NCBI GenBank assembly: GCA_017537745.1
Contig: JAFYKF010000009.1
Span: 1-64,000 of the forward strand
Source of the DNA: Candidatus Saccharimonadota bacterium
GTDB lineage: Bacteria > Patescibacteriota > Saccharimonadia > Saccharimonadales > Saccharimonadaceae
DNA length: 64,000 nt
Direction: 5' to 3'
A model generated the notes under the pieces. The model worked only from the letters and a program-made list of their open reading frames with translations. It did not search any database and was not told the DNA's origin. This document shows positions 1,767 to 22,336 of the stretch, one piece after another. Both the position numbers and the translations under genes were made by a program. Numbering within the stretch: the stretch's first letter is position 1; every line of letters starts with the position of its first letter.

Positions 1767-1781
1767 ACCATATATTATACA

Positions 1782-1810: not shown

Positions 1811-1814
1811 TTAA

Positions 1815-1930: not shown

Positions 1931-1944
1931 CAAAGGAACTTTTT

Positions 1945-2442: not shown

Positions 2443-2463
2443 TTATTAGAAAGGAATATTAAT

Positions 2464-2838: not shown

Positions 2839-2862
2839 ACACACTAATGCTAGCTATTGTTC

Positions 2863-2892
2863 AAAAAACCACCCAACAAAGGGTGGTTTTTT
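2863..2892. terminator. Bidirectional intrinsic terminator after rplL
   Basis: Perfect hairpin AAAAAACCACCC (2863-2874), six-base loop, GGGTGGTTTTTT (2881-2892). The A and T tracts let it serve rplL and the convergent membrane gene at 2901-3467. Confidence 0.93.
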
Positions 2893-2900
2893 GAGAGCAT

Positions 2901-4423: not shown

Positions 4424-4478
4424 AAATTATCCTTTCTGTGGTACTAACGGGCACAACCCTCCCACGGTTAATTGAATA
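4424..4478 (-). promoter_or_regulatory. Structured 5' leader of rplA, possible L1-binding site
   Basis: The roughly 55-base leader can fold as GTGG..CCAC enclosing GGG-TTGTG-CCC, separated by an asymmetric internal loop. L1 is known in other bacteria to repress by binding an mRNA mimic of its rRNA site. That this leader is such a mimic is inference; I see only the nested stems and the location. Confidence 0.35.
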
Positions 4479-4484
4479 TAATAT

Positions 4485-4493
4485 ATTATACCA
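4485..4493 (-). promoter_or_regulatory. Extended -10 promoter of rplA
   Basis: TGGTATAAT on the minus strand, predicting a start near 4478 and a leader of about 55 bases. Confidence 0.65.
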
Positions 4494-4506
4494 AATTAAT
4501 TAAGAA

Positions 4507-4535
4507 TTGACAAGAGTAGAAAACAGGAGTATAAT
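4507..4535 (+). promoter_or_regulatory. Consensus sigma70 promoter of rplK
   Basis: Perfect TTGACA (4507-4512), 17-base spacer, perfect TATAAT (4530-4535). One of two full-consensus promoters in the window. Confidence 0.9.
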
Positions 4536-4592
4536 AATAGGCGTTACGTAAATGCTTCTAAAATAATAAATTTAAAGAGGATTTTTGCAAAA

Positions 4593-5021
4593 ATGGCAGA
4601 AAAGAAAGTAATCGGGAATCTAAAGCTTAGAATCCCAGGTGGCAAAGCAACAGCTGGGCCTCCGGTCGGTTCCACTCTTGGTCAGTGGGGTCTTAACATG
4701 ATGGATTTCATTAACCCATTTAATGAAAAAACCAAAGAATTCATGGGCAAAAACGTAATTGTCCATATTAAGGTTTATGAAGATCGCACATTCGATTGGA
4801 CTTGTCTCGGTCAGCCAGTTGATGATTTGATTCGCGAAGCAATCAAACTCGACAAAGGCTCCGGCAAACCAAACGTAGACAAAGTTGGTAAAATTACCCG
4901 TGCACAACTCGAAGAAATCGCCCAGAAGAAAATGGATCAGCTCAATGCTGTCGACCTAGAAGGTGCAGTTAAAATTGTTGCTGGTACTGCCCGTTCGATG
5001 GGCGTTACAGTCGAAGAATAA
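4593..5021 (+). CDS. rplK: 50S ribosomal protein L11
   Basis: 142 residues, standard length. The N-terminal domain shows LRIPGGKATAGPPVGSTLGQ and the loop GLNMMDFINPFNEKT; the C-terminal RNA-binding domain shows GSGKPNVDKVGKITRAQLEEIA and GTARSMGVTVE. L11 binds the GTPase-associated centre of 23S rRNA. It is expressed alone from a full-consensus promoter and ends at a strong terminator, so its usual partner rplA is on an independent divergent unit. AAAGAGGA precedes the ATG. Confidence 0.98.
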   Translation: MAEKKVIGNLKLRIPGGKATAGPPVGSTLGQWGLNMMDFINPFNEKTKEFMGKNVIVHIKVYEDRTFDWTCLGQPVDDLIREAIKLDKGSGKPNVDKVGKITRAQLEEIAQKKMDQLNAVDLEGAVKIVAGTARSMGVTVEE

Positions 5022-5034
5022 TAGTTTCGCATTT

Positions 5035-5064
5035 AAAAGCAACGGTCTCGACCGTTGCTTTTTT
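5035..5064 (+). terminator. Intrinsic terminator after rplK
   Basis: Stem AAAAGCAACGGT / ACCGTTGCTTTT with a four-base loop and a T-run to 5064. Confidence 0.93.
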
Positions 5065-5074
5065 GTCGTCTTCA

Positions 5075-5083
5075 TGCTATAAT
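5075..5083 (+). promoter_or_regulatory. Extended -10 promoter with hairpin leader for gene 5142-5603
   Basis: TGCTATAAT followed by a roughly 50-base leader holding a hairpin (TTCCGCC at about 5092 with GGCGGAA near 5110) ahead of the GGGGG ribosome binding site. Confidence 0.65.
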
Positions 5084-5141
5084 AAAAAAATATTCCGCCT
5101 TGTGTGTCGGGCGGAAAATATGAAAGCAGGGGGTTATACCG

Positions 5142-5603
5142 GTGACACAAGAACACTTGCAGGAAGTAGAAGAGATACGAAGAAACAAATTCTTCGAATC
5201 GCCAGAAGACGAAGAGCTTTGGGAAGAATCATTCATGACGGCGATGCAGCTCTGGGAAGATTTTGCCGAAGGATACCGGACGGCGATTATCGAGTACAAA
5301 TTTCTCGCGGCCGAGCGCCGCAAGGCAAAAATTTGTCCGATTTACACCGTGCCGAAAGGCATCATCAGCGAATATCCTTACGTCCAGTTCTTCTTTTGCC
5401 TCGATGAGGTCTCAGCGCGCGAATATCTTAGGGATATCAGCGTAGAAGAACTGCCGGCCAGGACTATGAACTTGATGGATCTGGTTGAGACGAATCATGC
5501 CTACAACAGCATCATCACGCGAGTGAAAGAATTCCGTTACTTGCAAAAACGTGGCAAACACAAAAGCTATTGCTACGGTCTCTCCGCCAAGCTCTCCAAA
5601 TAA
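5142..5603 (+). CDS. Uncharacterised 153-residue protein
   Basis: GTG start chosen because AGGGGG lies about 10 bases upstream; the ATG at 5119 is in another frame. The protein is soluble and charged, with an acidic helical first third (QEVEEIRRNKFFESPEDEELWEESF), a central aromatic segment (EYPYVQFFFCLDEVSAREYL), and a basic C-terminus. No signal peptide or membrane helix. I recognise no family. It is a monocistronic unit with its own promoter, structured leader and strong terminator, and is clearly more GC-rich than rplK and nusG beside it. That pattern recurs in other accessory genes of the window. Confidence 0.72.
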   Translation: MTQEHLQEVEEIRRNKFFESPEDEELWEESFMTAMQLWEDFAEGYRTAIIEYKFLAAERRKAKICPIYTVPKGIISEYPYVQFFFCLDEVSAREYLRDISVEELPARTMNLMDLVETNHAYNSIITRVKEFRYLQKRGKHKSYCYGLSAKLSK

Positions 5604-7773: not shown

Positions 7774-8835
7774 TTATTCTAGCACCAATTCGGAAATATC
7801 CTTGACTACCGTTCCTTGTGTGAAAAGACCATATTTTCCAGTGATTTCAAAAGGCTCCTCGAGCGGCAAAAAGTCTAGGAAAGCAGTATCTTTAGCTTGC
7901 CCATCTTCGCTAACAGAAATCGTGATATGTGGTGTTTCTAGTGCGTCGCAAGCTTGCTGAATAATGGGATCATCTGCCTCGACTTCTACAAGTAAGCCCT
8001 CATTCTTGCCGTCATTGCCATATCCAACTGCATAAATCCTTGCGCTAGAGCCAATTTGCTTTAAATTGATTTGAGATGCTTGCGGCTTAAAGCTAGTAGT
8101 TACATGCGGATCTTTAACCTTCTGGTATAAAGTTGGCTGGATTTTACTATATAATTCGTCCGGTTCAACAAATATTCCGGCATAAACTGTTCGTTGCTTA
8201 GCCAATTCAGTTTTTTTGTCTGATTCGGACATAGAATCGAATGCTCTGGTTTTTTCCCAATCAATCAGGCTTTCGTCATAGATTAAAGCATGAGAATCCC
8301 AAAAATCTTTAGCCTCTTGCTGCTCTTCACGAGATGATATGCCTGGATCCCAAGGCTCCCTTGGGGAGCCCTCGCCAATATAAGCAGTAGTCAGCAAATA
8401 AGTATCTTTATCTTGGGCCAACTGGTCTCTTTTAAGAATTGCTATAACAGAATTGCAGGGATCTGGCGTGCGGTTTTTTACCATCGGGGTTCGCCCATTT
8501 CGTCCTTTTCTGTAAACCATTACAACGTCATCGTCAGAATTGACTTTCACGCAAGTCTGCTCGCCAACTTGATGATCAAATGTCACCTTTTCTTTCAAAA
8601 AGCTTTTACCTTCTGTATCAATCTGTTCAAGAGCTTTTCTCAGTAAATCTACAGTCATGCCACCTTCACTATGAAAATGACTTTCATCCCTGTCATATAC
8701 CTTAGCTCCATCCCTAGTGGTACCGAAAAAAATCCTGCTGCTCGGTTGTTCACTCTCGCCAGTAGCGCCAAGAGCGACAGTCCCCATGGTCTGATTATTA
8801 TGGCTGTTGGCGGGTGCGAGATTAAGTTTTTCCAT
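7774..8835 (-). CDS. 2H phosphoesterase-like protein with unassigned N-terminal domain
   Basis: 353 residues. The C-terminal third has two H-x-T motifs, PHVTTSF (His244) and PHITISV (His303), 59 residues apart and each on a hydrophobic strand: the signature of 2H phosphoesterases (LigT/CPDase), which act on 2',3'-cyclic phosphates or 2'-5' linkages in RNA. Residues about 35-200 form another domain with a His-rich start (ESHFHSEGG) and a conserved-looking YLLTTAYIGEGSPREPWD; I cannot name it, and a small RNase fold is one possibility. No signal peptide. CAGGAG precedes the ATG, one base after the stop of the TrmB-type regulator, so the two are translationally linked. Confidence 0.6.
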   Translation of the reverse strand: MEKLNLAPANSHNNQTMGTVALGATGESEQPSSRIFFGTTRDGAKVYDRDESHFHSEGGMTVDLLRKALEQIDTEGKSFLKEKVTFDHQVGEQTCVKVNSDDDVVMVYRKGRNGRTPMVKNRTPDPCNSVIAILKRDQLAQDKDTYLLTTAYIGEGSPREPWDPGISSREEQQEAKDFWDSHALIYDESLIDWEKTRAFDSMSESDKKTELAKQRTVYAGIFVEPDELYSKIQPTLYQKVKDPHVTTSFKPQASQINLKQIGSSARIYAVGYGNDGKNEGLLVEVEADDPIIQQACDALETPHITISVSEDGQAKDTAFLDFLPLEEPFEITGKYGLFTQGTVVKDISELVLE

Positions 8836-8836
8836 C

Positions 8837-9625
8837 TTATTGCTCCTGTTTAAAATAGTTTTGATAAAAATTCATCATTATTTTGAGAATTTGGCGCATA
8901 GATTCAGCGATAATCGGGCTGGTTATAATTGTGGATATCTGCATCTTATCATATGTAGAAATTGCCACCTTGTCGCCATATACCATAATTTCTGCTGGGG
9001 CAGTATAATCGCCTTCCGGCATCCAAACACGCTGAAAGTTCCAGGCAGAATCTTTTCCGGAACGCATATTTTTTATTGAACGGCTGGTCACGGGTGTCAA
9101 GGCATAGGTATGAATACCCATAATTGCTCTTTGTTCTCGATACTGACTCAGAAAGTCACTCAATTCTTCATCGTCATTCCAAAAAGGGATGTCAGCCACA
9201 GTACGAAGGAAATAGATATCCTTTTTAACACGCAATGTGTCCCTATACACTTCCTTAATTCCCTCTACTCCTTCTAGGGTTCTCGCACCAGGCATTTCAT
9301 TATTGGCATAAAAAATATCCAAAAGCGAAGAAATGTTGTCTTTCACAAATTTTTCATTCTTAGCTAAAACCTTGCGACGTTTTTCAACTAACACTTCAAG
9401 GTTACTCGGATTTAATAATCGATAAGCTATCTTTTTGTCATCAATTTGCTCAACTAGTTCAAGCTCGGCCAATTTTTTTGCTACGGCGTAACAATTTTCG
9501 CGAGATTGACCAGTTTTCTCAGCCAATTCCACAGGAGTAAGAGCACCGTTTTTAAGTAGTGCACTATATACTGCTGCCTGAGCCTCATTCAAGCCAGCTT
9601 TTTTGAGTAAATCTAAGTCTTCCAT
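8837..9625 (-). CDS. TrmB-family transcriptional regulator
   Basis: 262 residues. The N-terminal winged helix (LLKKAGLNEAQAAVYSALLKNGALTPVELAEKTG) is the TrmB pattern; residues 100-255 resemble the phospholipase-D-like effector half of such proteins, ending in a membrane-free helix. TrmB proteins bind promoters and respond to a small ligand, often a sugar in archaea. It heads a two-gene operon with the 2H phosphoesterase-like gene one base downstream, so that gene or its own promoter is the likely target. The mRNA appears leaderless, and the tRNA-Gln promoter fires divergently 30 bases away. Confidence 0.82.
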   Translation of the reverse strand: MEDLDLLKKAGLNEAQAAVYSALLKNGALTPVELAEKTGQSRENCYAVAKKLAELELVEQIDDKKIAYRLLNPSNLEVLVEKRRKVLAKNEKFVKDNISSLLDIFYANNEMPGARTLEGVEGIKEVYRDTLRVKKDIYFLRTVADIPFWNDDEELSDFLSQYREQRAIMGIHTYALTPVTSRSIKNMRSGKDSAWNFQRVWMPEGDYTAPAEIMVYGDKVAISTYDKMQISTIITSPIIAESMRQILKIMMNFYQNYFKQEQ

Positions 9626-9897: not shown

Positions 9898-10057
9898 TGA
9901 TATACTTTTCTGGCTCGCAGGGGATATAGGGATCCCTATCCATCATCATCAACCTCCCTGCCTCATCCACCACCCCTATCCCACTCTAGCTAAACCACGA
10001 TTAATATGTTATAATAATAGATAGCACATTAACATGACCAGAGGGAGGGAGGATTCT
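9898..10057 (+). promoter_or_regulatory. Upstream region and promoter of the nucleotidyltransferase gene
   Basis: Contains a 14-base palindrome ATAGGGATCCCTAT (about 9925-9938), an extended -10 TGTTATAAT (10007-10015), and the strong site GGGAGGGAGG just before the ATG at 10058. No gene seen. Confidence 0.65.
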
Positions 10058-11242
10058 ATGGTTAAGCTATTAAAACCTGCTATCGAACGTAGGCTTGAAA
10101 AAGCTAGCTCCAGTATAGGAACAAGAAAAAGAATAGCTGAAGACGTTTGCCGTTTTCTCGAAGCGAAACCCGAAGATGCCCGTAATATGCCGCTCGAACG
10201 AGAACACTTTTACAGTGCTTGCGAAAGTTTACTAGAAGACAGAGACTACAGGAGGATTCTGTTATATCTACCGCTAGGGCTTTTAGAATATGCTCCGGCT
10301 GCGTTTAAAGAAACTTATCTCCATGCATGGTTCCAGCTTTTGGGTGTGAGTGATGTTCGCGAGAACTTCCACTTTGGTGATTGTTTTGAACTCGATGCTA
10401 GACCGCTCTGTGGGCTAGATCGTGTTGTCAAATGCGCACACCTTACGCCGTGGCTACTGAAGTTCGGGTACATCAGCGCGAGGCAGCTTCAGCGTGCCCT
10501 CGAACATCTTTCCGATGACGAAGTTCTACTCCAAAGTTTTAAAGACACCTGGGAGTACATCCGGAAGCGCCAGATTCTCGACGCCCCCGATCTACTCAGG
10601 CTCACATCGTTAACCGATCTCTTGCCCGAAAGAAAAAGACAAGAACCGCTCTACGTTTCGAAGAAGCGACTGGATTGGCTTAACGAGCCAAAGAAGAAAG
10701 TAGAGCTTTTGACCCCCACGGCCAAGCTCGAGGGGCCATTCTCGGATAACATACCAGCATTCGAGGACAAGTTGCAAAAAATCATAGCGCAACTCGCCTC
10801 GTCCGAAATTGTTCTCGTCGGCGGCTCTCAGCTCAAAGGTTATGGCGCAACAGATTCTGATCTTGATATTTGGCACCTTGATAGCCTAAAAGAAGACTCT
10901 GCCTTTAGACCCGGTAGCCCCCACGCTGTCCACGTTTATTTCAACACGATATGGCTTGGTGGAAGAGCCATAGTAGACAAATTGGAGGATATAGCAAACG
11001 ATATAACAAGCATTTACACTGATTCGGAAATGTACAATTCGCGGTCGGAATTCAGGCGCCAAGCAATTGAGCGTCTGGAGAGTGATTTGCTCTTATACAG
11101 ACTTCTGCACAAAGGATTTTCCAGATTTACTGGCAAAACAGAATACTCAGTCCCGTCTGAAATGGATGGTGACTGCCCATTCTACTCTGACGAGTATCGT
11201 AGAATTGCGACTATGCTCTACGCAAAATATGTCTGGCTATAA
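10058..11242 (+). CDS. Nucleotidyltransferase-fold protein, accessory
   Basis: 394 residues from the ATG at 10058, chosen because GGGAGGGAGG precedes it by 7 bases; an ATG at 10034 would include that site. Residues about 250-275 carry EIVLVGGSQLKGYGATDSDL, the GGS plus DxD pattern of the polymerase-beta superfamily (acidic residues about 266, 268 and 270). The first 240 residues are helical with no family I recognise. Such proteins transfer nucleotides to RNA, protein or small molecules, and many accessory ones are antitoxins, toxins or resistance enzymes; which applies here is unknown. Monocistronic, convergent with the four-gene operon, closed by a strong terminator, GC-richer than core genes. 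Confidence 0.72.
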   Translation: MVKLLKPAIERRLEKASSSIGTRKRIAEDVCRFLEAKPEDARNMPLEREHFYSACESLLEDRDYRRILLYLPLGLLEYAPAAFKETYLHAWFQLLGVSDVRENFHFGDCFELDARPLCGLDRVVKCAHLTPWLLKFGYISARQLQRALEHLSDDEVLLQSFKDTWEYIRKRQILDAPDLLRLTSLTDLLPERKRQEPLYVSKKRLDWLNEPKKKVELLTPTAKLEGPFSDNIPAFEDKLQKIIAQLASSEIVLVGGSQLKGYGATDSDLDIWHLDSLKEDSAFRPGSPHAVHVYFNTIWLGGRAIVDKLEDIANDITSIYTDSEMYNSRSEFRRQAIERLESDLLLYRLLHKGFSRFTGKTEYSVPSEMDGDCPFYSDEYRRIATMLYAKYVWL

Positions 11243-11250
11243 GGTCATGG

Positions 11251-11280
11251 AAAAGGGCCCCCCGCGGGGGACCCTTTTTT
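11251..11280. terminator. GC-rich bidirectional terminator
   Basis: AAAAGGG-CCCCCC-GC-GGGGG-A-CCCTTTTTT: nested stem with A and T tracts. It ends the nucleotidyltransferase gene and, in reverse, the four-gene operon. Confidence 0.93.
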
Positions 11281-11294: not shown

Positions 11295-12497
11295 TTACAG
11301 AACGCGCTTGCCGGTCAGGCCGGTCATGCCGGCGACGTCGCCGCCGCCGAGCTCGCCCCAGTTGATCTGGGTGCCCAGCTGCCACAGAGCCACGAAATAG
11401 TTGACTTCCACGTCGGAGGTAACCGTATCGTGCTTGGCGAAGGCCAGAACGTACTTGACCAGGTTCTGCTCCAGACGAACGTAGTTGCTGGAGACACTGG
11501 CGCCGATCTTCTTGAGCATCATCTCGCGGTTCTTTACGCCAACCATGGACGGCAGGCGCGGATCCTCGAGCGTGTTGCGAATGGTGTTCGCGTCATAGGC
11601 CATGGCGGCCGCAACCTGAACACCGGTGCCGCGGAAGACGCGGTTGATGGAGTCGACCAGCGTATCGCCAGCGTCGTGCAGCTGAGCGGTGTCGGGCGGA
11701 GTAATCATACTCATGCCGGCTGCTCCGCCGCCAAAACCGCCACTGATGGCGGCGATCAGCATGGAGGGATCGGAAAAGCTTGCGCGCCAGGTCTGATACC
11801 AGCCATCCAGCGTACGGTAGCTTTCGGCAATGGCCGGCCAGAGCGTTTCGCGGATGCGGCTCAAGAACTCCTTGCGACGGGCCTCCGTGATGAAAGTGCC
11901 GTCGAGGCCGTCGATAGCGGCGAAGATGTCGCCGTAGGCGCGACGGGTCAGAGACTTGCGCAGAGCGTAGAAAGTCGGGTCGACCTGTTCTTCGGTCTCG
12001 TCAGCGTATTTTTCCATCGCCTTCGCCAGAGCATCAGGAATGGCATAGAGACCAGCCCGATCGGCCAGGGCCGCCCGGATGGCAGCGATGTAGGACGATT
12101 CGTCCACTTTCAGGATACCGCCGGTCTTCAGGGCGTTCAGCCAAGAATCATCGGTCGGGATCGAGGGCAGCAGAGACTCGAACTGGGTCTGAATGGCACG
12201 AGTTTCCGCAGCGGCAACCGCCGGAGCGGGCTTGCTGGCGTTCTTCAGCTCAGCGACGAGCTTGCGCGCTTTCGCGAGTTTCATGCCAGCACCGGTGAGG
12301 TCGGATACTTCGAGAGAAGCCAAGTCTTCAAGGCTTTCGACGCCAAGATCTTCCATGATTTTCAGAGCGTCAAGTCGGCCAAGACCATACTCAGTGAGCT
12401 TAGCAAAGACCTCATTCTCCATGGGATTCGGCACGGAATTTGCCGGAGTGGGTTCAGCGGTGATTTTGGCGGTAGCGTTCTTCATTTCTTCAGCCAT
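11295..12497 (-). CDS. Uncharacterised protein with helix-hairpin-helix-like N-terminus (operon gene 4)
   Basis: 400 residues. After a low-complexity start, residues about 33-85 (LTEYGLGRLDALKIMEDLGV; LEDLASLEVSDLTGAGMKLA) look like a tandem HhH/SAM-like nucleic-acid or protein-binding module. Residues about 105-400 are mostly helical, with a glycine-rich loop (GGFGGGAAGMSMI) and no motif I can name. No signal peptide. AAGGAGG precedes the ATG; the gene begins 13 bases after the PurA-like gene, so it is the last gene of the operon. It is the most GC-rich stretch of the island, which suggests recent transfer or different codon selection. Confidence 0.72.
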   Translation of the reverse strand: MAEEMKNATAKITAEPTPANSVPNPMENEVFAKLTEYGLGRLDALKIMEDLGVESLEDLASLEVSDLTGAGMKLAKARKLVAELKNASKPAPAVAAAETRAIQTQFESLLPSIPTDDSWLNALKTGGILKVDESSYIAAIRAALADRAGLYAIPDALAKAMEKYADETEEQVDPTFYALRKSLTRRAYGDIFAAIDGLDGTFITEARRKEFLSRIRETLWPAIAESYRTLDGWYQTWRASFSDPSMLIAAISGGFGGGAAGMSMITPPDTAQLHDAGDTLVDSINRVFRGTGVQVAAAMAYDANTIRNTLEDPRLPSMVGVKNREMMLKKIGASVSSNYVRLEQNLVKYVLAFAKHDTVTSDVEVNYFVALWQLGTQINWGELGGGDVAGMTGLTGKRVL

Positions 12498-12510
12498 GAT
12501 TTTGTCCTCC

Positions 12511-13824
12511 TTATTCTGAATAGATTTTATTCTTTTCTGTGGGTCCGGCTGAAAGGATTTTTAGCGGGACTTTTAGAAGACCTTCGAGGATTTTGCCGAC
12601 GAAATCGAATAACTCGCGTACGGCAATGGGGTTTTTGATGACGGTTTCGGGAATGATGGGTTCGGCTCTACTCAAAAAGTCGACATACGATTCGTTGCCG
12701 TTTCGCACGTACTTGTAATCGACACAAATCGGCCAAGTTCGTTTGTTGGCTAAGATTTGATCAAACCAAGTAAGGGCGAGACCATCAAAATCTATCTCGT
12801 TGCTTACATCCAATGCGTATTTCACAAGGTTTAAGTCGAGGGGGCCGGCGCGAACGGCGCCTTGCCAGCGATTTTCATCCTTGTGGCTGCCAGGAAGCAT
12901 GCGTGCGGTAAATTCAGGGTCATAGGTCGGCATGGGGCCGGCGCCATGACGGATTTCGTAGGCACGATGAACGGCGTAGTTGATAATCTTGCCATCGTAC
13001 CCGGCACTCTTAAGCATTTCGTTTGCGAAGATTGGCAGAGTTCGGATGGCGCTGACGTGGGGTTTTAAGCCCATTTCAGCGTCGGTTAAAACTCCGTGCG
13101 AGCACTCGACGATTGCTGTGCCGTCGCCTTTTAGTACCTCATCAAGACTTTTAAACGAAAGTTTTTTACCTATTCTGTCAAATAAATCGATAATATAGTT
13201 AAAATAATCTTCGTCATGAAGAAGCAAGATGAGGTTGGCGGCGTAGCTATGGAAATCGTCGGGTAAAAAAGCATCTCGAGTGATGTTATCATACCGCTCA
13301 AAGTAATAATCGTATTGTCTTTGAAGCTTCGAGCGGATAATCCGACGATTCGTGAGGTCGCGGGCTCGGATTGTCATCTCTTCGCCTAAGGAAGTCATGC
13401 GATAGGCTTGTCCAACGCCCGTTCCGACGGTGCCGCGCGGCTTATCTTTTAAGAGTAGCTCTTCAAACTGAGAAGCGATTCTATGATAAGGCGTGGCGAC
13501 GATGCAGGACGGGTCGCAGGTGAGAAGTTTGAACGGGTCGAATATTCCGAGTTTTTTGAGGGCTTCTGATTCATTATCAAGCCCAACAGGTGAAATGACC
13601 ATTTGCTCGGACAGAAAAGTCGGTACACCTTCAAGCGTTCCGCATCCCCACTGAGAAAAGTTGAAACTCTCTCCTAGGGAAGTGCGTACGCCATGAGAAC
13701 CTTGTGCGCCACCGCGTTTGATAATGAGATTAGCGTCGGTTTTGCACGAAAGTGCATGCACTATGCTACCTTTTCCGCCGTCGCCTGGACCGAGGTCGGT
13801 GATAACGTAGATTTCGTTGAACAC
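12511..13824 (-). CDS. Adenylosuccinate synthetase (PurA) family protein, divergent (operon gene 3)
   Basis: 437 residues, PurA length, alignable throughout: GPGDGGKGS (catalytic-type Asp15, Lys18), GGAQGSHGV (His44), EGVPTFLSEQMVISP, GTVGTGVGQAY (131-141), VECSHGVLTDAEMG, and DGLALTWFDQI near the end. Catalytic Asp and His are kept, but several IMP contacts differ from normal PurA: the Asn before the catalytic His is Gln41, the Arg of the GTTGRG motif is Thr, and the Gln of the EGAQG loop is His. PurA joins IMP and aspartate; these changes and the absence of purB or other purine genes suggest another substrate or a regulatory role. GTG start with AAGAGGTG upstream. PurZ-like activity is an alternative. 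Confidence 0.82.
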   Translation of the reverse strand: MFNEIYVITDLGPGDGGKGSIVHALSCKTDANLIIKRGGAQGSHGVRTSLGESFNFSQWGCGTLEGVPTFLSEQMVISPVGLDNESEALKKLGIFDPFKLLTCDPSCIVATPYHRIASQFEELLLKDKPRGTVGTGVGQAYRMTSLGEEMTIRARDLTNRRIIRSKLQRQYDYYFERYDNITRDAFLPDDFHSYAANLILLLHDEDYFNYIIDLFDRIGKKLSFKSLDEVLKGDGTAIVECSHGVLTDAEMGLKPHVSAIRTLPIFANEMLKSAGYDGKIINYAVHRAYEIRHGAGPMPTYDPEFTARMLPGSHKDENRWQGAVRAGPLDLNLVKYALDVSNEIDFDGLALTWFDQILANKRTWPICVDYKYVRNGNESYVDFLSRAEPIIPETVIKNPIAVRELFDFVGKILEGLLKVPLKILSAGPTEKNKIYSE

Positions 13825-13874
13825 ATTACACCTCTTAGCAGACTGTAAACCAAATTGTTAATGAATCTTGATTA

Positions 13875-15041
13875 CTACAGGTATTCGATGTGGTCCGGAG
13901 CTTCCATTGGCGTATCTTCGGCGTCTTCTTCGCCAGACTGAATCGGCCAAAGGTCGCCTTTGTTCCTGAAGATGTCACCAGCTTTGGGAACTGGATGCGG
14001 CAACGCGTGGCGAAGCTTTGCCTGCGCACCGATGTCGATGCTGGAAAGCTGCTTAATTAAATCATAGTCGAAAACCAGACGAGTGTCGAAAGTGACACGA
14101 TACTTCGCCGGCGGGAAGTAGGTTCCTCTAGAAAGTCGTGCAGCAAGCGGGTCGTCGTATTTCCTTCTTGGGTAATCAAAGCTAGTAATATCCATTGTTC
14201 CCTCGGTCAGACCGATGATGGCGGAAATGACCGCCGGCAGTTGTCGAGTGGAATCAATTTCGATTACCGACTTTTCGCCACAGAGTTCACGCCAGTCGTC
14301 GGCGGCGCTAGGTGCTTTAACTACCAAAATAAACTGGTGGGTCTTGTCTTTAAGGTCACTAACCATCTGTTTCATCGTGGGAATCTTCGTCATATCTTTA
14401 AGCTCATTATCAAAGACTTCTTCGCCAAAAATATGCTTGATGTTCTCACGTTTAAGATGACGATGGCAGGTCGCGTCGGTCACGATGAAGTGATAGCCCT
14501 TAAGACCAATGCGGTTAGTGTAAGCATCGGTCAGATAAGCGCGCGCAAACATGGCATATTGCGGATCTTCGGGTATATCACCACCATCACGCTGAGGCGC
14601 CATCTCCTTAAGATAGTTTACGATTTTGGGTGCTTCCATCTCAAATTGAGGGCGACACATTGCGAACTTGTCTTGGCAATCACCAAAGATACCGAGGCAA
14701 AGCTGCGGGTCGTAGCCCGGAAGTACCTTAGCTACCGCTTCATAGAGGTCCGGCAGGACTTTCATTTCCGTGTCAACTTCGCCACCCATCGAGCCAGTAG
14801 TATCGCAACTAACTTCGATGTCCATCGGACAGCCGACGGTTGCAATCCACTTTTTCTGGTGAGGGTCAAGCCGAATCAGAGACCTTCGAATCGGATTAAT
14901 GGCTGGGTCAACGATTTCGCTGAGGCGCCCGGTTTCCTGGGCGCGCCGCTCGGCGACCTTGGTGACGTCAGCATCGTGTGTTACGCCGTAGTCTTCGCGA
15001 GCTTTTTTATAGCTTTCAACCGAGAATACATTCCTACCCAT
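13875..15041 (-). CDS. von Willebrand factor A domain protein (operon gene 2)
   Basis: 388 residues. The vWA domain covers about residues 70-290. It has an intact MIDAS start DTTGSMGG (80-87), a GGDIPED loop (153-159) and the strand FIVTDATCHR with Asp189, so metal-dependent ligand binding is likely. The C-terminal 100 residues are proline- and acid-rich. No signal peptide or membrane helix: cytoplasmic. GAAAGGGGAG precedes the ATG, which overlaps the end of the kinase-like gene by 8 bases, so the two are translationally coupled. vWA proteins in such operons commonly act as scaffolds for kinases, AAA+ ATPases or phosphatases, as in TerY-type systems. Confidence 0.82.
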   Translation of the reverse strand: MGRNVFSVESYKKAREDYGVTHDADVTKVAERRAQETGRLSEIVDPAINPIRRSLIRLDPHQKKWIATVGCPMDIEVSCDTTGSMGGEVDTEMKVLPDLYEAVAKVLPGYDPQLCLGIFGDCQDKFAMCRPQFEMEAPKIVNYLKEMAPQRDGGDIPEDPQYAMFARAYLTDAYTNRIGLKGYHFIVTDATCHRHLKRENIKHIFGEEVFDNELKDMTKIPTMKQMVSDLKDKTHQFILVVKAPSAADDWRELCGEKSVIEIDSTRQLPAVISAIIGLTEGTMDITSFDYPRRKYDDPLAARLSRGTYFPPAKYRVTFDTRLVFDYDLIKQLSSIDIGAQAKLRHALPHPVPKAGDIFRNKGDLWPIQSGEEDAEDTPMEAPDHIEYL

Positions 15042-15837
15042 TTTTACTCCCCTTTCTTTTCCAAGCTACCGTACCGCGTTCGCGATAAGTGAAAGGATAA
15101 TAAGAAATCCCCCAGAGTTTTTTTACTAAATCGTAGAGATCCTTATGCGCCAGTTCAAACGAATCGCGACCATGTTCTGAAAAATCTTTCACCAACTGAT
15201 AGTACTCAAGCTCATGGGAATCGTCTTCTAATTCGATCCAACCAAGCATAAATGTGGCAATTGATTTGACAAAATCGTAGGCCACGACGTCAGCTATGTC
15301 GTCAGTGAAATTGTAGTAAACCAGCCGATGTTTTTCTGGACTAATGAGATAATCGTCGGGCGAAAAGATCGGATATCTGACTATGGGACTGTCTCCGCCA
15401 GCTGCGATAAGCTCAAAAAAGCCGTAGAGCTTAAAGAGACGTCCCATGATCCAGACACTAGTGCGAGCGTCGATTGTGACATTTGCATGAAGTTTTGCAA
15501 GCGGGGTTAGCTCACTGAGGTCGATATCGGGCATCGTGAGTACGTTGATGCGCCGGTCGTCTTGAGTGGGTTCCATAAACGAAGTTTCAATTTTGGCAAA
15601 GAGCCAGTTGTAGCTTGTTTTTGTACTACCCTCCTTTTTCTCGAATTGCTCAATTTCGTCTGCGAGTAGGCTCATTTGGTAGAGCTTGGCAGATTCTTTG
15701 GCCAGGACATCACCATCTTCGAATGTCTTTGCCACCTTCAGAATCACCGAGTGCCCATCGTCCATCTTGCCAAGGTAAATGCGGAATTTAGAGGATTCGC
15801 CGATGCGATTCCCCACTTCGATATCCCTGACTTTCAA
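15034..15837 (-). CDS. Protein-kinase-fold protein, probably a pseudokinase (operon gene 1)
   Basis: 267 residues from a TTG chosen because AAGGAAGTGGT lies 3-4 bases upstream; a GTG at 15846 is an alternative. The N-lobe is kinase-like: glycine-rich loop IGESSKFRIYLG, Lys34 in VILKVAK and a Glu48 helix. The C-lobe is degenerate: where HxDxxxxN should be there is YPIFSPDDYL, and DFG is replaced by NFT (176-178). It could bind ATP without normal phosphotransfer, or use a non-canonical mechanism. First gene of the operon, transcribed from a promoter at 15917-15925 with a leader of about 70 bases. Confidence 0.65.
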   Translation of the reverse strand: MKVRDIEVGNRIGESSKFRIYLGKMDDGHSVILKVAKTFEDGDVLAKESAKLYQMSLLADEIEQFEKKEGSTKTSYNWLFAKIETSFMEPTQDDRRINVLTMPDIDLSELTPLAKLHANVTIDARTSVWIMGRLFKLYGFFELIAAGGDSPIVRYPIFSPDDYLISPEKHRLVYYNFTDDIADVVAYDFVKSIATFMLGWIELEDDSHELEYYQLVKDFSEHGRDSFELAHKDLYDLVKKLWGISYYPFTYRERGTVAWKRKGSKNG

Positions 15838-15916
15838 TTCAACCACTTCCTTTCCCCAAATAGAATCAAGTTTTAAAAAAACATGCTCCGTGCATTTGGC
15901 ACGGTGCACCACTGCT

Positions 15917-15925
15917 ATTATAACA
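15917..15925 (-). promoter_or_regulatory. Extended -10 promoter of the four-gene operon
   Basis: TGTTATAAT on the minus strand. The leader that follows contains GTGCACCGTGCC...GCACGG, able to form a small hairpin before the ribosome binding site. Confidence 0.6.
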
Positions 15926-16013: not shown

Positions 16014-19000
16014 TCAATCTCCAGTTCCAGAATGGATCATGCCATCATATACACTATTAAACGGCAACGACTCCCCAGCTGCGGCATTGTTTTCGTTATT
16101 ATTTATGTTATTGGACGGCAACAGTTCTTCAGTTACATCATTATTTTCGCCACCATTCATGTCGTTAGACGGCGACGCTTCCTCAATTACGGCGTTATTT
16201 TCATCATTATTGGTATCGTTAGACGGCGACGCCTCCTCCTCAACTATAACATTATTTTCATTATTATTAATATTATTAGATGGTACCGCTTCTCCAGTCA
16301 CCGTCAAGGTGGAACTACCTGTAATAATGTAGGTCGTTGGATTAGTATTATTAGATCCCAGTGAACCATTCGATGCGGTAGCATAGCTTACAAATCTATA
16401 GCCAGCTCCGTCTAACTCCGTAGTAACAGTATAAGATACGCCGTGTCTCAGAGTGACAGTATCGCCGCTACTTGTTATAGTTTGGGTGTCATAAGCCGGG
16501 TGCGAAATAGTGACGCTAGAAATACCTGACCCGGCAAAGTTGATGGTAGTAGTATAAGTAGGAGTCTCAAGTATACATCTTATAGCTGAGGCATAATTAT
16601 GAGTAAGGCTATTACTCGTCACCATCGTATTTTGCCTTACAAGGAATTGTTGTGGGTTTGAGGAGGTATCTCTTGTCGAAGTCCAAAGATCACCTTGGAA
16701 AGTTGGATCGCTGTTTAAATAACCAGAGAAGAATGTCCCTGCAAAAGGAATAGAGGTTTTGTATTGTACGCTAGAAGGAGAACTTGCATTTCTATAGCTA
16801 TAATAATTGTAGAGACCGTAGAAATCGCCAGCTACATTACCAGTCGGCACATGCCAGCCAGCTGGACAAATATCTCCATCAAGGTCGTAGTAGGAAGATG
16901 GGTTAGAATCTGATTCCGGGATATTGGTTTTATTTGTGCCGTTGCCATAGCAGTACGTACCCGCAGAGAGGGCGCAGTAGTTATATAGAACACCCATTTT
17001 TCCGCTACCATTTCCATAGACGGTGACTGTAGAATTTTTGTCCCATTGAGTGCTACTTTCATTTACGCAAGAACCTGGATAGAGACAAGTGCCAGAGGAG
17101 ACCGACATTGGTACGCTGTAGTAGTCCTGGCTACTACTGGTCCAAGCCTCGCTGTTTAAGGCAGCAGTAGGATATTGGTCGTTTACGGTACCACCGCCGT
17201 TCTTGAGATAATTAAGTGCCGTAGCGGAGGCGTTGGTATTTGATGCGGTCACATTAGCCAGTGTATTGCTATCACCTAGGTCTAGCCTCAAATTATCTAG
17301 CATCCAAAGACGACCGTCGGCTAGTTTAGAAACACAATAAGGCTCACCATCACGAGAATCTCGTAAGTAATAAGGTTGTTCAGTAATTAATGTGCCTAGA
17401 ACAGTAGTATAGTTGCTGGTATTAATTTCTTGCATATACGTAATATTCGGAACCGGAGTACTGCAAGACGCTGGTGGATCTGGCCCTAAGTAAGCTTGGC
17501 TAGTGACGCTAAGCTCCGCAGCGCCACTAATCGAATAGGTAGTTGTAGCGCTTGAAGTGGACCCTAAATTACCATTTGCAGAAGTAGACCAGCTACTAAA
17601 TGTGTAATCAACGGAGAAACTAGACGCAATAGTATAATTGACACCGCCATACAAGTTTATAGTGACCGTTGCGGTGCCGTCCCCATTATTATTATTGTTG
17701 GTAACTGTCTCGGTACCATAATCTTCGTGATAGAAGCTAACACTAGACGTGTTAGCGTCAAGATTTACTGTGACCGCATAGGTAGTAGCTTGGCTCACGG
17801 AAAGTGTAAGGGTAGTGTCGTCAACGATAGCAAAAGTAGTAGGATTCTGGTTGGAATTTCCTATGGTGCCACTAGTTCCAGCAGTCCAGGCATCTAATAT
17901 GTAGCCTTGTGAAAAATTGGCTGTTATGGTATACGTAGCGCCTTTAGCTAAACTGACAGTATTATTTGCCGTCGTTGCGGTTACGGTACCGAAATTATTG
18001 CTAGTAAATGTAACTTTACTTACATTTTGTGGGAATGTCACTGTGACACTATTATAGACTGTAGCGGTACCATTAAAGACACATCTGACTGCGAAACCCT
18101 CCCACTTATTGTAAGGATTTACGCTCGCTTGCAATAGCCCATCTGTGTATCCTAATTGATGGGCCCTGCCATTGTCTTTCGTTGTCGCAGTCCACATCAT
18201 TCCATTAGAAAAACTCGAACTCCTTTTATTGCTGTTGTATTCACCAGACCAGACAAAATTGTTTGGATATGCACGCCAGATGAGATCCGAACTGTCTGAA
18301 TTATTATTGATGGTTGCGTTTAATGTGTTATATTCGCCACCACTGCCACCGGTTGGCAAATGCCAGTCAGTGGGACAAATATCCCCAGCAACCACGCCAT
18401 CATGGTTTGGACCACTTTGCTCCGTAGTGCTAAAGACACCATTCCCGGCAGTGGCAGTATACCAGTTATAGTAAACGCCATAAGAATACCATCCGCTTGT
18501 CGCATCGTCATTGGTGTAAGATTGCGTCAAAGTCCTATCTAGGTTATTTGCGTTATATTGAATTTGATCTAAGCAATCAGGACTTCTGACATTACAAAGT
18601 GTATTTAAGGACTGAGTATTGCTATCATTCGAAGCTGATACGAAACCGGCAACTGGGTTGTTGGTATTCTGAGCGGTAATAGTGGCTGTTCCAGGATCGA
18701 GGCGGAGATTTTCGACAATCCAGCATCTATCATCACCTAGTTTAGCTACGGCGTAAGTTTGATTGTCGCGAGTATCCGTTAATGCTATTACGTCATTCTG
18801 GACCATCGAATTACAACCAGTCCAACTCTGAAGATTGCCAGAAGAAGGTACCCACTTAGCATATAGTTTCAACCCTGAAGAACTAAGGTCGCCAGTCGAA
18901 ATGGTGGCATTTGGGCCATAAACCACATCTCCAGTTTCTGTAGTCCAACCAGCAAACCCATAACCTGTTCTTGAGAAGTTAGGCGGAACAAGCGTGGCAG

Positions 19001-22000
19001 TGCTATTAGATGTAGCGGATTGGTTTGCCATAGTGCTGATGCCTCCATTTGCGCCATTTTCAAAGTAGCAAATGTATCCTGCTGGACAAGTGTCTTCTTG
19101 GAAAACGACGTAAATCGTCTTGGTGGTGGATTGTCCAGAGCTATTAACCGTAATAGTACTCGGAGTAAAGGTGCCAGTAGCGGCATCATAGGCATAATCC
19201 GGAGTAGTTTCACCACTAGCATCGCTGTAGCCAAGGAACGTGTAACCATTGAGAGAAGGAATTGTGCTAGTAGAAATAGTGAATTCATAGGAATTGTTTT
19301 TGCTGTTCGTAGTTTCGTCTTCCGGAATAACGACCGAGTAAGTATCAGCGTCATAATCGAGAATATATTCCAACTGTACGATGGATGAACCTGGGTAAAT
19401 GCAACGTACGGCGAAAGCATCCCACTTCTTAAATGATCCCGCAGGTGTAGGGTTGCCAGAAACGATGCCGAGCCGGTAGGCATTAAGATTGCCGTCAGGC
19501 GTGGCGCTCCAATAACGACCATAACTATTGCGCCCACCCGGTGTATTATAATTGTAGTCACCAGAATAAATAAAGTTATCGGGAAATTTTACCAACCCAC
19601 TATCTGAAGTCGTAGAACCACCGTTGGCTAAATTATTTAGGTTTACAAATTCACCATTCTCGCCACCAGTCGGCAAGCGCCATCCGGCTGGACAGATATC
19701 ACCGGCTACATCAGTACTGCTTGTATTATAAGTGCCATTGCCAGCCGAAGCAGTATACCAATTATACATCACACCATAGCTATACCAAGATCTATCTACG
19801 CTATTATTGTTGTGCGCCGGAGTAAGGTTGCGGTTTAGTGCATTTGTATTGAAGCGGATTGTGTCTATACAGGTGTCATTATCACCATTGCATAGCGTAT
19901 TGGAACTAGCAGAATTTTGGGCAGCCGTAATAAAGTCGGCAGTAGGTGAATTGGTATTACTACTAGTAAAGGTGGTAGTGGAAGGATCAAGACGAAGATT
20001 CTCTGTCATCCAGCAATTTCCATCTTCTAGTCTGGTCACAGAATATACGTTATTATCACGTATATCTCTGAGTGCAATAAACTCACCAAATTCCATATTT
20101 TCACATTGAGCCGAACCGAATGACTGCATTGTGTAATTAGTATCTGCTGGCAACCATACTGCATAGAAAGTGATTTGGTTATTTTGATCAGCATTTGCGA
20201 GAAAGTTGCTATCGACGGTGATGGCCTGATTTGGCCCATAAATTGTCACTGCCTGGCCGTTTAATAGCTTGGCACCAGCACCACTATCTAGGCTCCAGCC
20301 CGCAAATCCATAGCCAGTGCGGGAGTAATTAGAAGATACCAATGTTCTTTGGCCCAATTCCAAATTATAGACCGTAGCGTTTGTCATAGTGCCAGCATCA
20401 GAGCCATTGCCATCATAAACCAAACTATATACTGAACGCCAAGTGGCGTACAAAGTGAGGGTTTGACCTTCGGCAATACCCATTCGATCAGCGGCAGTAG
20501 CTACCGAACCACCCTCGTCCACAACAACACCAGTGCCATCAGCGGCAGTATTCCAGCCAACGAACTGATAATGCGTTCTTGTGTATGCATTATTTGCGGC
20601 TAGCGCAGTGTTGAAATCAACATTGGTTTCGTCCGACATCGTGCCGGTGCCGCCGTTGGCATCATAATGAATGTTGCCGATGACATGATATCCTGGATTA
20701 AATAAACAACGCACAGTCTGTCCACGCACTTTTGCTGTACCGTTAGAATTCATGTTGACGCCATCAGGTTTTAACCAAAGGTTGACAGTGTTAGATGCGC
20801 TAACTACATTAGTAGTAGCATAGCTGCTAGAAGTACCACGATTATAACCAGCTTCACTCCGATATTCACCACTAAGAATGAAGTTATAAGGATAGGTGCG
20901 CCAACGCTTCGAAGCGGCTAGACCGCCTGAAGAATCAGAGGGTTGGTTGGTACCATTTCCACCCATAGTAACATCAAGAATCGCCAAATCGCCGACATTG
21001 CCATAGCCAGACGGTAGTCGCCAATTGGCTGGACAAATATCGCCAGCGGCAGACGCACCCGCAGTACTTAGGCCGTAAGTGCCATTTCCGGCAGTAGCAG
21101 TATACCAGTTGTAATAATGCCCATAAGAATACCAAGAAGCGGAGTTAGTGTTTGCATTGTACGAAGCAGTCAAGTTACGATTTGTATTATTAGTATTAAA
21201 CTTTATCTGATTATTGCAAGTAGCGTTATTATTGGTGCAAAAACTATTTGAAGACGCAGGATGATTGGTGTTGACCGCTGTCGAAAAATCTGCGGATGGC
21301 TTATTGGTGTTCAAATTCGTAATCGACAAATTCTGATTATTTAAATCTAGACGCAAATTCTCAATCATCCAACATTGATTGTCGGCAAATTTAACTACAG
21401 CATATGTGTTCTGGTCACGAGTATCCGTAAGAGCAGTAATACTATTCCGAGCCATAATCAAATCACCGGTGACATCATCATAGCGAATAGCCGTCATGTC
21501 GTTGCAGCCATTCCAGCCTTGTAGGTTCCCTGAGGAACGTATCCAACGAGCATAAAGCTGTAGTCCCCTAACAGAAAGATCTCCAGTGGTAATTGTTTGG
21601 TTTGGACCATAATTAGTGCCTGAACCATCCGGCTCGGTGTTCCAGCCTGCAAAACCATAACCTGGGCGAGAGAAATTGGAAGCCAATAAGTTGATATCTG
21701 AGTTTGAACTAGCAGATTGATCCGCCATTGCTCCAGTATCATCATCATAGTTGCCGTCATAGCAAATGCTATTTGCTGGGCAAGGCACAACGTTTGCCGT
21801 GATGGCAATTTCAAAAGTGTTGCTGTAACTACCAGGTTGAGTCAAAGCAGGAACTTTAACGCCGAAAGTCAGTGTATGGCTATTGCTGCCAGAAGTTGAA
21901 GTTTGGAATAACACGGCGGGGGCCTCAAGGGGTTCTGGCACCGGTAAATAGTTCGCTCCACCATCTACGCTGTACCCATAGCCGTCACTAATTGAACCAA

Positions 22001-22310
22001 CTGGGATGCTAGATGAACCACTCGGCAAGGTGAAAGTAGGAATGGTTTTTGTATTATCTTGCTCATGAACCAAAGCAGAAGAATCGCCAATGGTGATTAA
22101 TCCGATTTTATATCCAATCGAATTGGAAGTAGAAGCAGTGATGGTCTGGCTCTCGGTGCCAAATTGATTTACGGCAAGGCTCAGTTGAACAGAATTAGAA
22201 GAAAGCGAAATCGATAAATTCGAGTCAGCAAAAACCGCCTGACTGGTGAAAAGTAGGCTGACAAATGAGAGTACAATTAAAATTATTAGTTTTTTTATCG
22301 GACCCCTCAC
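16014..22310 (-). CDS. Giant secreted FISUMP / InlB-repeat surface protein
   Basis: About 2098 residues. I choose GTG at 22310, after GGAGAGAGG and overlapping the stop of a 9-codon upstream ORF. A signal peptide follows (KKLIILIVLSFVSLLFTSQAVFA). Then come an N-terminal beta domain, several Listeria-Bacteroides (InlB B) repeats such as FSRPGYGFAGW and YARW, and four FISUMP domains marked by DTRDQNTYAVVKFADNQCWM, RDNNVYSVTRLEDGNCWM and variants, each with a WRLP or WHLP motif after CPA or CP. Three divergent InlB-type repeats with FSQGYILDAW-like motifs also occur. The C-terminus is a five-unit acidic N/E/S repeat with no membrane anchor. Probably an extracellular adhesin or host-contact protein; binding partner unknown. 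Confidence 0.85.
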   Translation of the reverse strand: MRGPIKKLIILIVLSFVSLLFTSQAVFADSNLSISLSSNSVQLSLAVNQFGTESQTITASTSNSIGYKIGLITIGDSSALVHEQDNTKTIPTFTLPSGSSSIPVGSISDGYGYSVDGGANYLPVPEPLEAPAVLFQTSTSGSNSHTLTFGVKVPALTQPGSYSNTFEIAITANVVPCPANSICYDGNYDDDTGAMADQSASSNSDINLLASNFSRPGYGFAGWNTEPDGSGTNYGPNQTITTGDLSVRGLQLYARWIRSSGNLQGWNGCNDMTAIRYDDVTGDLIMARNSITALTDTRDQNTYAVVKFADNQCWMIENLRLDLNNQNLSITNLNTNKPSADFSTAVNTNHPASSNSFCTNNNATCNNQIKFNTNNTNRNLTASYNANTNSASWYSYGHYYNWYTATAGNGTYGLSTAGASAAGDICPANWRLPSGYGNVGDLAILDVTMGGNGTNQPSDSSGGLAASKRWRTYPYNFILSGEYRSEAGYNRGTSSSYATTNVVSASNTVNLWLKPDGVNMNSNGTAKVRGQTVRCLFNPGYHVIGNIHYDANGGTGTMSDETNVDFNTALAANNAYTRTHYQFVGWNTAADGTGVVVDEGGSVATAADRMGIAEGQTLTLYATWRSVYSLVYDGNGSDAGTMTNATVYNLELGQRTLVSSNYSRTGYGFAGWSLDSGAGAKLLNGQAVTIYGPNQAITVDSNFLANADQNNQITFYAVWLPADTNYTMQSFGSAQCENMEFGEFIALRDIRDNNVYSVTRLEDGNCWMTENLRLDPSTTTFTSSNTNSPTADFITAAQNSASSNTLCNGDNDTCIDTIRFNTNALNRNLTPAHNNNSVDRSWYSYGVMYNWYTASAGNGTYNTSSTDVAGDICPAGWRLPTGGENGEFVNLNNLANGGSTTSDSGLVKFPDNFIYSGDYNYNTPGGRNSYGRYWSATPDGNLNAYRLGIVSGNPTPAGSFKKWDAFAVRCIYPGSSIVQLEYILDYDADTYSVVIPEDETTNSKNNSYEFTISTSTIPSLNGYTFLGYSDASGETTPDYAYDAATGTFTPSTITVNSSGQSTTKTIYVVFQEDTCPAGYICYFENGANGGISTMANQSATSNSTATLVPPNFSRTGYGFAGWTTETGDVVYGPNATISTGDLSSSGLKLYAKWVPSSGNLQSWTGCNSMVQNDVIALTDTRDNQTYAVAKLGDDRCWIVENLRLDPGTATITAQNTNNPVAGFVSASNDSNTQSLNTLCNVRSPDCLDQIQYNANNLDRTLTQSYTNDDATSGWYSYGVYYNWYTATAGNGVFSTTEQSGPNHDGVVAGDICPTDWHLPTGGSGGEYNTLNATINNNSDSSDLIWRAYPNNFVWSGEYNSNKRSSSFSNGMMWTATTKDNGRAHQLGYTDGLLQASVNPYNKWEGFAVRCVFNGTATVYNSVTVTFPQNVSKVTFTSNNFGTVTATTANNTVSLAKGATYTITANFSQGYILDAWTAGTSGTIGNSNQNPTTFAIVDDTTLTLSVSQATTYAVTVNLDANTSSVSFYHEDYGTETVTNNNNNGDGTATVTINLYGGVNYTIASSFSVDYTFSSWSTSANGNLGSTSSATTTYSISGAAELSVTSQAYLGPDPPASCSTPVPNITYMQEINTSNYTTVLGTLITEQPYYLRDSRDGEPYCVSKLADGRLWMLDNLRLDLGDSNTLANVTASNTNASATALNYLKNGGGTVNDQYPTAALNSEAWTSSSQDYYSVPMSVSSGTCLYPGSCVNESSTQWDKNSTVTVYGNGSGKMGVLYNYCALSAGTYCYGNGTNKTNIPESDSNPSSYYDLDGDICPAGWHVPTGNVAGDFYGLYNYYSYRNASSPSSVQYKTSIPFAGTFFSGYLNSDPTFQGDLWTSTRDTSSNPQQFLVRQNTMVTSNSLTHNYASAIRCILETPTYTTTINFAGSGISSVTISHPAYDTQTITSSGDTVTLRHGVSYTVTTELDGAGYRFVSYATASNGSLGSNNTNPTTYIITGSSTLTVTGEAVPSNNINNNENNVIVEEEASPSNDTNNDENNAVIEEASPSNDMNGGENNDVTEELLPSNNINNNENNAAAGESLPFNSVYDGMIHSGTGD
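16066..16294 (-). repeat. Five imperfect tandem repeats at the 3' end of the giant FISUMP gene
   Basis: Units of about 50-54 bases encode variations on SPSNDxNxxENNxVxEE. The repeat number may vary between strains by slippage. Confidence 0.8.
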
Positions 22311-22336
22311 AGGCCCTCTCTCCAATACTCTCGCAT
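22307..22336 (-). CDS. Nine-codon upstream ORF coupled to the giant FISUMP gene
   Basis: ATG at 22336 sits exactly six bases after TGCTATAAT, the leaderless spacing seen at other genes. It encodes MREYWREGL and ends in TGA at 22309-22307, which overlaps the GTG start (22310-22308) of the 2098-residue protein. A ribosome ending here could restart directly. It may be a chance ORF. Confidence 0.45.
   Translation of the reverse strand: MREYWREGL

Follow-up and report, generated by a model that had tools for sequence, protein, structure and literature searches.

The window analysed here, 64,000 nucleotides of contig JAFYKF010000009.1 from a Candidatus Saccharimonadota bacterium (family Saccharimonadaceae, assembly GCA_017537745.1; genome of 838 kb, 98% complete), carries a cassette of five genes that code for a pseudokinase (gene 1), a protein with a likely von Willebrand factor A (vWA) fold (gene 2), a homologue of the adenylosuccinate synthetase (AdSS) PurA (gene 3), an all-helical protein with an N-terminal HhH/SAM-like domain (gene 4) and, convergently oriented, a nucleotidyltransferase (NTase)-like protein (gene 5). 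The cassette is conserved among Patescibacteria, the core triad of genes 1–3 is found in phages and on plasmids, the genes move horizontally, and the active site of the PurA-like protein is altered and not decayed. As a gene system it appears to be new, although its individual folds are known: our search of the open-access literature (subscription papers lay outside its scope) brought up no description of an AdSS/vWA/kinase system, and the surveys of conflict systems and jumbo phages covered by it do not mention adenylosuccinate synthetase. With synteny in 52 loci, the idea of a conserved and apparently undescribed system, put forward in an initial annotation of the sequence, is upheld. With a confidence somewhat short of even, we regard the cassette as a mobile stress or conflict module in which an AdSS-derived enzyme would act on an altered purine substrate together with vWA and pseudokinase partners. 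A widespread PurA subfamily that lacks the amino-acid-binding loop, travels among phages, plasmids and ultra-small bacteria and is accompanied by a vWA protein and a pseudokinase implies either novel purine chemistry or a GTP switch.

The PurA-like protein and its partners

PurA is one of the most conserved enzymes of metabolism. The product of gene 3 is homologous to it over the full length (PF00709 match at 3e-34, covering nearly the whole protein), but scores only 79–92 bits against the NCBIfam equivalog models, whose cut-offs of 396–402 it does not pass. For a residue map, 52 members from bacteria of the candidate phyla radiation (CPR) were aligned on E. coli PurA numbering and 69 viral members were mapped separately. 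The CPR members keep the equivalents of D13, the P-loop Lys K16, H41, the guanine-contact residue D333, and S414; D13, H41 and K16 are found in 51/51 members without an alignment gap. Changed are E14 (to G), N38 (to Q), G40 (to S), T129 (to V or I), Q224 (to H) and V273 (to H), and R143 is not conserved; the clamp for the 5′-phosphate of inosine monophosphate (IMP), formed by T129 and R143, is thus replaced. This map agrees with the initial annotation, which had noticed that the catalytic Asp and His are kept while IMP-contact positions are changed. The most telling change had been overlooked: the entire L-aspartate-binding loop TTGRxRR (T300/T301/R303/R305) is replaced by WQGxVR in the window and by [WYFH]QGxxR across the family, a shortened loop of the QG type from which R303 is deleted in 52/52 CPR members.

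The viral members show the same trend. N38 is Q, V273 is H and R303 is deleted in 69/69, T301 is Q in 63/69 and T129 is C in 61/69, and D13, K16, H41, Q224 and D333 are kept in 69/69. None of these changes was found in 10 canonical PurA proteins, 7 of them from Patescibacteria. In the tree, which was rooted by midpoint only, 10 canonical PurA proteins (7 CPR) form one side of a branch with 100/100 support, so that by sequence the PurA-like protein belongs to a clean subfamily outside canonical PurA.

The host genome contains no PurB homologue, whereas the same search was positive in 14/14 control genomes, and the gene 3 product is the only PurA homologue in it, a second one being absent. The earlier statement that no other purine genes are present therefore stands genome-wide for PurB and a second PurA, the two for which it was tested. 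Without PurB, no known route would lead on from any adenylosuccinate that is made, and a canonical purine role of gene 3 is therefore very unlikely.

The protein of gene 1 taken alone has no match in Pfam. It does match gp253 of the phage LRRHood (3e-21), which exceeds the Pfam Pkinase cut-off and has, in addition, a weak DnaJ match with an HPD motif. The catalytic HRD Asp is absent from 46/46 viral homologues (no HxD) and throughout the CPR alignment, and in the clade of the window the catalytic-loop Asn and the DFG-type Asp are also lost. Because the catalytic Asp is missing in both sets, gene 1 encodes a pseudokinase of kinase fold, in line with the broken catalytic loop described before.

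Gene 2 likely encodes a protein with a vWA fold. Its DxTGS metal ion-dependent adhesion site (MIDAS) motif (D80-T82-S84) and a later D189 are invariant in the CPR alignment, an N-terminal MGxxxFSxxxY is conserved, and the protein is homologous to phage gp254 (2e-19). The best external support for the fold comes from E. coli ViaA, with which a short stretch at the MIDAS aligns weakly; the protein has no Pfam match and no match to the Protein Data Bank (PDB) in a profile search. PDB profile searches with the HhH/SAM and kinase alignments likewise gave nothing significant.

The HhH-like start of gene 4 seen in the initial annotation is borne out by profile matches to HHH_5 (1.7e-4, window protein) and SAM_TNK (2.7e-5, a homologue), the domain spanning about residues 38–85. 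The AlphaFold2 model is of low confidence (pLDDT 66), with an N-terminus resembling the N-terminal domain of RAD51 and an all-helical C-terminus; in the fold search the best PDB matches had E > 0.1. Some loci of the Parcubacteria type retain the N-terminus but have an unrelated Met-rich sequence in place of the C-terminal part. An alternative gene 4, with an HhH/SAM-like start and a Met-rich GGDMDLSSMMP motif in an unrelated C-terminal half, lies downstream of the PurA-like gene in loci L058, L067, L076 and L077; by eye this half resembles Met-rich proteins encoded just upstream of the vWA gene in Rhizobium and Vibrio phages (L097 4783–5574, L098 5229–5942).

Gene 5 homologues begin at the equivalent of ATG 10058 and carry the motif GGSxLKGYGxxxSDxD, of which GGSxxKGY and SDxD are conserved in the alignment. 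Pfam gives only sub-threshold NTase matches, and the AlphaFold2 model, although confident (pLDDT 92), has no significant Foldseek match in the PDB and viral structure libraries. Nucleotidyltransferase activity of the predicted product is uncertain because a third carboxylate is not evident.

Distribution, conservation and mobility

A homologue search with the PurA-like protein in 198 genomes of the order Saccharimonadales found close homologues (46–72% identity) in 10, the window's own included; in others it found only distant canonical PurA of about 25% identity. All nine other full loci of the order (9/9) contain the kinase-like, vWA, PurA-like and HhH-like genes in identical order, and a gene 5 homologue accompanies the operon in 10/10 of these first loci, the window counted. 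A wider scan with one genome per bacterial and archaeal species brought the number of loci to 52 which, where a taxon is given, come from Saccharibacteria, Falkow-, Moran-, Wildermuth-, Uhr- and other Paceibacteria-type bacteria. When loci cut by a contig end are excluded, the vWA gene lies upstream of the PurA-like gene in 47/48, the kinase-like gene beside it in 45/46 and the HhH/SAM-like gene downstream of it in 48/50, so that the four genes of the initial annotation do occur together elsewhere. The convergent NTase-like gene, which had been overlooked, is present in 40/44. Co-occurrence of the module genes is thus far beyond chance. The only locus that lacks every one of the partner genes contains a lone degenerate PurA-like paralogue.

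Some loci deviate from this pattern. The lone paralogue (L030/L079, G121:C9) lacks the RHGAGP...WQG segment, has GNSGKG in place of GDGGKG, has no vWA or kinase neighbour and is followed by the gene of a 408-aa protein to which no family was assigned; it is possibly a decayed or repurposed copy. In Uhrbacteria (L078) the PurA-like and NTase genes are found without gene 4 between them, and a weak HhH/SAM-type match lies in ORF 4057–5202 of the locus. A distant Patescibacteria genome (G488) is of an intermediate type, its locus consisting of genes for an NrtR-type Nudix factor, pseudokinase, vWA, PurA-like and HhH/SAM-like proteins, a second vWA-like protein and a kinase. The second vWA-like protein and the 775-aa kinase-domain protein, whose catalytic Asp is kept, are encoded downstream of the module (L109, G488:C3, 4757–8396), so that the system may exist in G488 in an expanded form. 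A CRISPR array beside this module was suspected from a translated repeat-like string, but no repeats were found.

The spread to phages and plasmids had not been noticed in the initial annotation. A tblastn search of phages with the PurA-like protein matched phages of Mycobacterium (189), Rhizobium (10) and Vibrio (6); with the vWA homologue the identical three groups were obtained, in identical numbers. For example, LRRHood, a Bxz1-group mycobacteriophage (Bixzunavirus), encodes in succession the kinase-like gp253, the vWA-like gp254, a small gene and the PurA-like gp256. In viral contigs at least 289 PurA-like relatives were found. Among 80 that were fetched, a vWA gene lies within 3.5 kb in 73 and slightly further away in 5, and in the remaining 2 the PurA-like gene is close to the contig end; HhH/SAM and NTase genes were found in none of the 80. 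The core triad, present in Bxz1-group phages and in about 80 sampled large viral contigs, is also carried by plasmids of Rhodococcus, Tsukamurella, Variovorax, Agrobacterium vitis, Acetobacter and Rhizobium. Two of these neighbourhoods may be mentioned in passing. In Rhizobium phage RHph_TM30 (L097) genes for a HAD phosphatase, a ComF-like PRTase_3 and an NMN adenylyltransferase/Nudix protein (948–3275) lie upstream of the vWA/PurA-like pair and are reminiscent of nucleotide-signal operons; on an Acetobacter persici plasmid (L105) an AbiEii-type toxin nucleotidyltransferase gene (1944–2651) is located 1.2 kb from the triad. Many phage and plasmid genes now annotated "adenylosuccinate synthetase" would need re-annotation.

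Within the genus of the window the module is patchy (3/15 genomes). The G+C content at third codon positions (GC3) is 48–72% in the module genes versus 34–44% in seven other genes of the window. High expression as the reason for the high GC3 of gene 4 was ruled out, because rplA in the same window has a GC3 of only 34.5%; the high value is rather a sign of foreign origin. In a different genus (L021) the module is 78–84% identical in four genes to those of two congeners of the window, and the window's own module, at 60–75%, is less similar to these two; gene 4 of L021 shares only 49–51% with them. It follows that the module is transferred from genus to genus and that gene 4 is swapped independently of the other genes. 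A comparison with congeners revealed no clean empty site, the flanking genes being themselves patchy.

In G488, A. vitis and, with a weaker score, Rhodococcus, the gene of an NrtR-type Nudix regulator lies next to the triad. Counted over 76 non-redundant loci from phages, plasmids and G488, a Nudix family was found in 7, NAMPT in 7 and NADAR in 4. A link of the module to the NAD/ADP-ribose state is favoured on the grounds of these neighbours outside Saccharibacteria, because NrtR regulators of such type sense ADP-ribose (PMC9503650).

Interpretation and comparison with known systems

Patchiness, foreign composition, exchange between genera, carriage by large phages and the NrtR, NAMPT and NADAR neighbours together favour a stress or conflict role. 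If the PurA-like protein is an enzyme, it would keep the GTP-dependent activation of the purine 6-oxygen, for which D13, H41, K16 and D333 are retained, and would use either a nucleophile other than free L-aspartate or a larger purine substrate, for example of the NAD/ADP-ribose type or linked to a protein; a simple 5′-monophosphate would no longer be clamped in the manner of PurA. The vWA protein and the J-domain/pseudokinase may regulate this enzyme as a pair, presenting or gating it in the manner of a chaperone. In Patescibacteria the HhH/SAM-like protein could serve as a scaffold or effector that is open to exchange, while the NTase-like protein could make or transfer a nucleotide or act as a regulator; in other hosts expression is probably tied to ADP-ribose by the NrtR-type Nudix factor. 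The wider proposal, that all this represents a new class of immune or counter-immune systems, common to large phages, Patescibacteria and further bacteria and built on an AdSS-derived enzyme that needs no aspartate and makes or repairs with GTP a purine compound (plausibly of NAD/ADP-ribose metabolism) under vWA-pseudokinase control, with an exchangeable HhH/SAM effector and a nucleotidyltransferase added in Patescibacteria, is speculative and, as a whole, rather doubtful.

Several observations speak against a stress module built around such an enzyme and should be kept in mind. The vWA fold is assigned from a motif and weak profile support, and the NTase-like protein has neither an obvious third carboxylate nor a fold match. 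Q224 and T239 are kept in most non-CPR members, in which part of the IMP site thus survives. The relatives match no PADLOC model beyond generic kinase-domain similarity. The NrtR, NAMPT and NADAR links all lie outside Saccharibacteria loci, G488 belonging to another group of Patescibacteria, and there are other reasons for the presence of NAD genes in large phages.

The main rival is that the AdSS-like protein is not an enzyme but a GTP-binding switch or a structural part of a vWA/pseudokinase/HhH-SAM assembly, with a mechanical effect such as complex or filament assembly or sequestration. A switch would fit the alteration of both substrate sites with retention of the P-loop and the guanine-contact residues, and also the company of a pseudokinase, a vWA-like protein and what may be an oligomerisation domain of the SAM type. 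Against it stand the catalytic Asp and His, which are still present in 69/69 viral members and in every aligned CPR member, and the new invariant residues (Q38, H273 and the QG loop), which suggest that the active site has been retuned and has not decayed. We consider a switch rather unlikely, though deserving of serious attention.

Alternatively, the triad could be a phage-derived nucleotide or NAD cassette that serves infection by way of a modified nucleotide, NAD/ADP-ribose repair or counter-defence, the copies in Patescibacteria being domesticated or proviral. This partly overlaps with the enzyme reading. The many viral loci (at least 289, besides the 189 Mycobacterium phages), the NAMPT, NADAR and Nudix neighbours and one Saccharibacteria-type copy that shares a viral contig with genes for a GH25 lysin and a ParB-methylase agree with it, but the NTase and HhH/SAM genes are missing from all 80 sampled viral contigs, no phage genes were recognised beside the window copy, and the triad also occurs on bacterial plasmids with a regulator. 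On balance a cassette that mainly serves infection seems rather unlikely.

A PurZ-type enzyme for 2-aminoadenine or another modified DNA base is hardly to be expected. PurZ of S-2L and phiVC8 is likewise a phage-linked AdSS paralogue with an altered purine site, and in PHROG the PurA-like protein matches best a family labelled 2-aminooxy adenylosuccinate synthetase. Direct comparison with PurZ of cyanophage S-2L (PMC8342488), which ruled out identity with this Z-genome enzyme, revealed the opposite residue pattern: in S-2L PurZ the catalytic Asp is replaced (GSTGKG) and the TTxT aspartate loop is kept. In the phage and plasmid loci that come with annotation (L093, L094, L097, L098), no gene next to the triad is labelled DatZ, MazZ or DpoZ. 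Just as improbable is a diverged but ordinary AdSS for purine salvage or synthesis: a nearly full-length PF00709 match in the genome's only PurA homologue is what it would predict, and it is ruled out as a canonical enzyme by the lost aspartate loop, the tree and the absent PurB, to which are added scores far below equivalog cut-offs near 400, loss of R143/T129, absence of the gene from most congeners and its linkage to vWA and pseudokinase genes, not to pur genes.

Returning to the preferred stress or conflict module, the closest described genes are those of Bixzunavirus annotated "PurA-like adenylosuccinate synthetase" and their neighbours, which are direct homologues of three window genes in matching order but lack the HhH/SAM and NTase genes, have a J-domain in the kinase and were annotated gene by gene. 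With TerY/Ter and vWA-centred conflict systems, for example the vWA-MoxR ternary systems (PMC7159879), the module shares a vWA protein with kinase-type partners, mobility and modularity; an AdSS-like core is not mentioned there. The suggested affiliation with Ter systems had to be abandoned: TerD is absent from 11 module genomes (0/11), which rules it out, and no Ter gene was recognised beside the triad. As in the TerY-type triad the vWA gene adjoins that of a kinase-fold protein, but this kinase lacks the catalytic Asp; no MoxR ATPase was recognised beside the triad, and no PP2C phosphatase among the neighbours scanned with Pfam (a genome-wide PP2C search was not made). The conflict networks around NAD/ADP-ribose (PMC9503650) resemble several copies of the module in having NrtR-type Nudix regulators, NADAR and NAMPT close by, but AdSS is not mentioned in that survey and the module has no recognised ADP-ribosyltransferase or glycohydrolase. 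No component of PADLOC-DB 2.0.0 matches the window proteins.

The immune repertoire of Patescibacteria is thin, and the module, if its proposed role is true, would be a candidate native conflict system for them. A convenient model is offered by Bxz1-group mycobacteriophages, which have the core triad and can be grown on M. smegmatis.

Layout of the locus and adjoining genes

Positions of the five genes and of the associated signals are collected in Table 1.

Table 1. The five-gene locus and its putative signals (window positions)
Feature	Positions (strand)	Remarks
Gene 1, pseudokinase	15034–15846 (−)	Probable start GTG 15846, by homology
Gene 2, vWA-like protein	13875–15041 (−)	MIDAS motif DxTGS
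Gene 3, PurA-like (AdSS-like) protein	12511–13824 (−)	PF00709 match
Gene 4, all-helical protein, N-terminal HhH/SAM-like domain	11295–12497 (−)	Profile matches
Gene 5, nucleotidyltransferase-like protein	10034–11242 (+)	Convergent to gene 4
Hairpin rich in G+C, with a T tract, in the interval that separates genes 4 and 5	11251–11280	Read from sequence
Possible −10 hexamer TATAAT, operon promoter	15917–15922 (−)	Sequence; −35 weak (TTGTTT)

The four same-strand genes described in the initial annotation are confirmed by the sequence, with an 8-base overlap of genes 1 and 2 and gaps of 50 (genes 2/3) and 13 bases (genes 3/4). Homology with L032 places the start of gene 1 at the GTG (protein MVELKVRD...) and not at TTG 15837 as previously assumed. 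Of the promoter proposed at 15917–15925 the hexamer stands, being perfect, but its −35 region is weak and it is absent from the list of the consensus promoter scan, in which the number of promoter-like matches in the window was not above chance. The terminator proposed earlier is a real hairpin; the terminator scan lists a stem at 11258–11270 within it (the number of such sites being not above chance). Because it is placed between two convergent genes, it is probably a bidirectional terminator shared by genes 4 and 5.

On the gene 5 side, a TrmB-type regulator (8837–9625, −) is encoded next to a 353-aa protein with no family assigned (7774–8835, −); this pair is missing from most congeners and also stands together in G568. 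On the other side, two giant proteins with Fib_succ_major (FISUMP) domains adjoin the module (16014–22325 and 23978–27199, −), the former also with Listeria-Bacteroides repeats, and both are likely surface adhesins of the epibiont.

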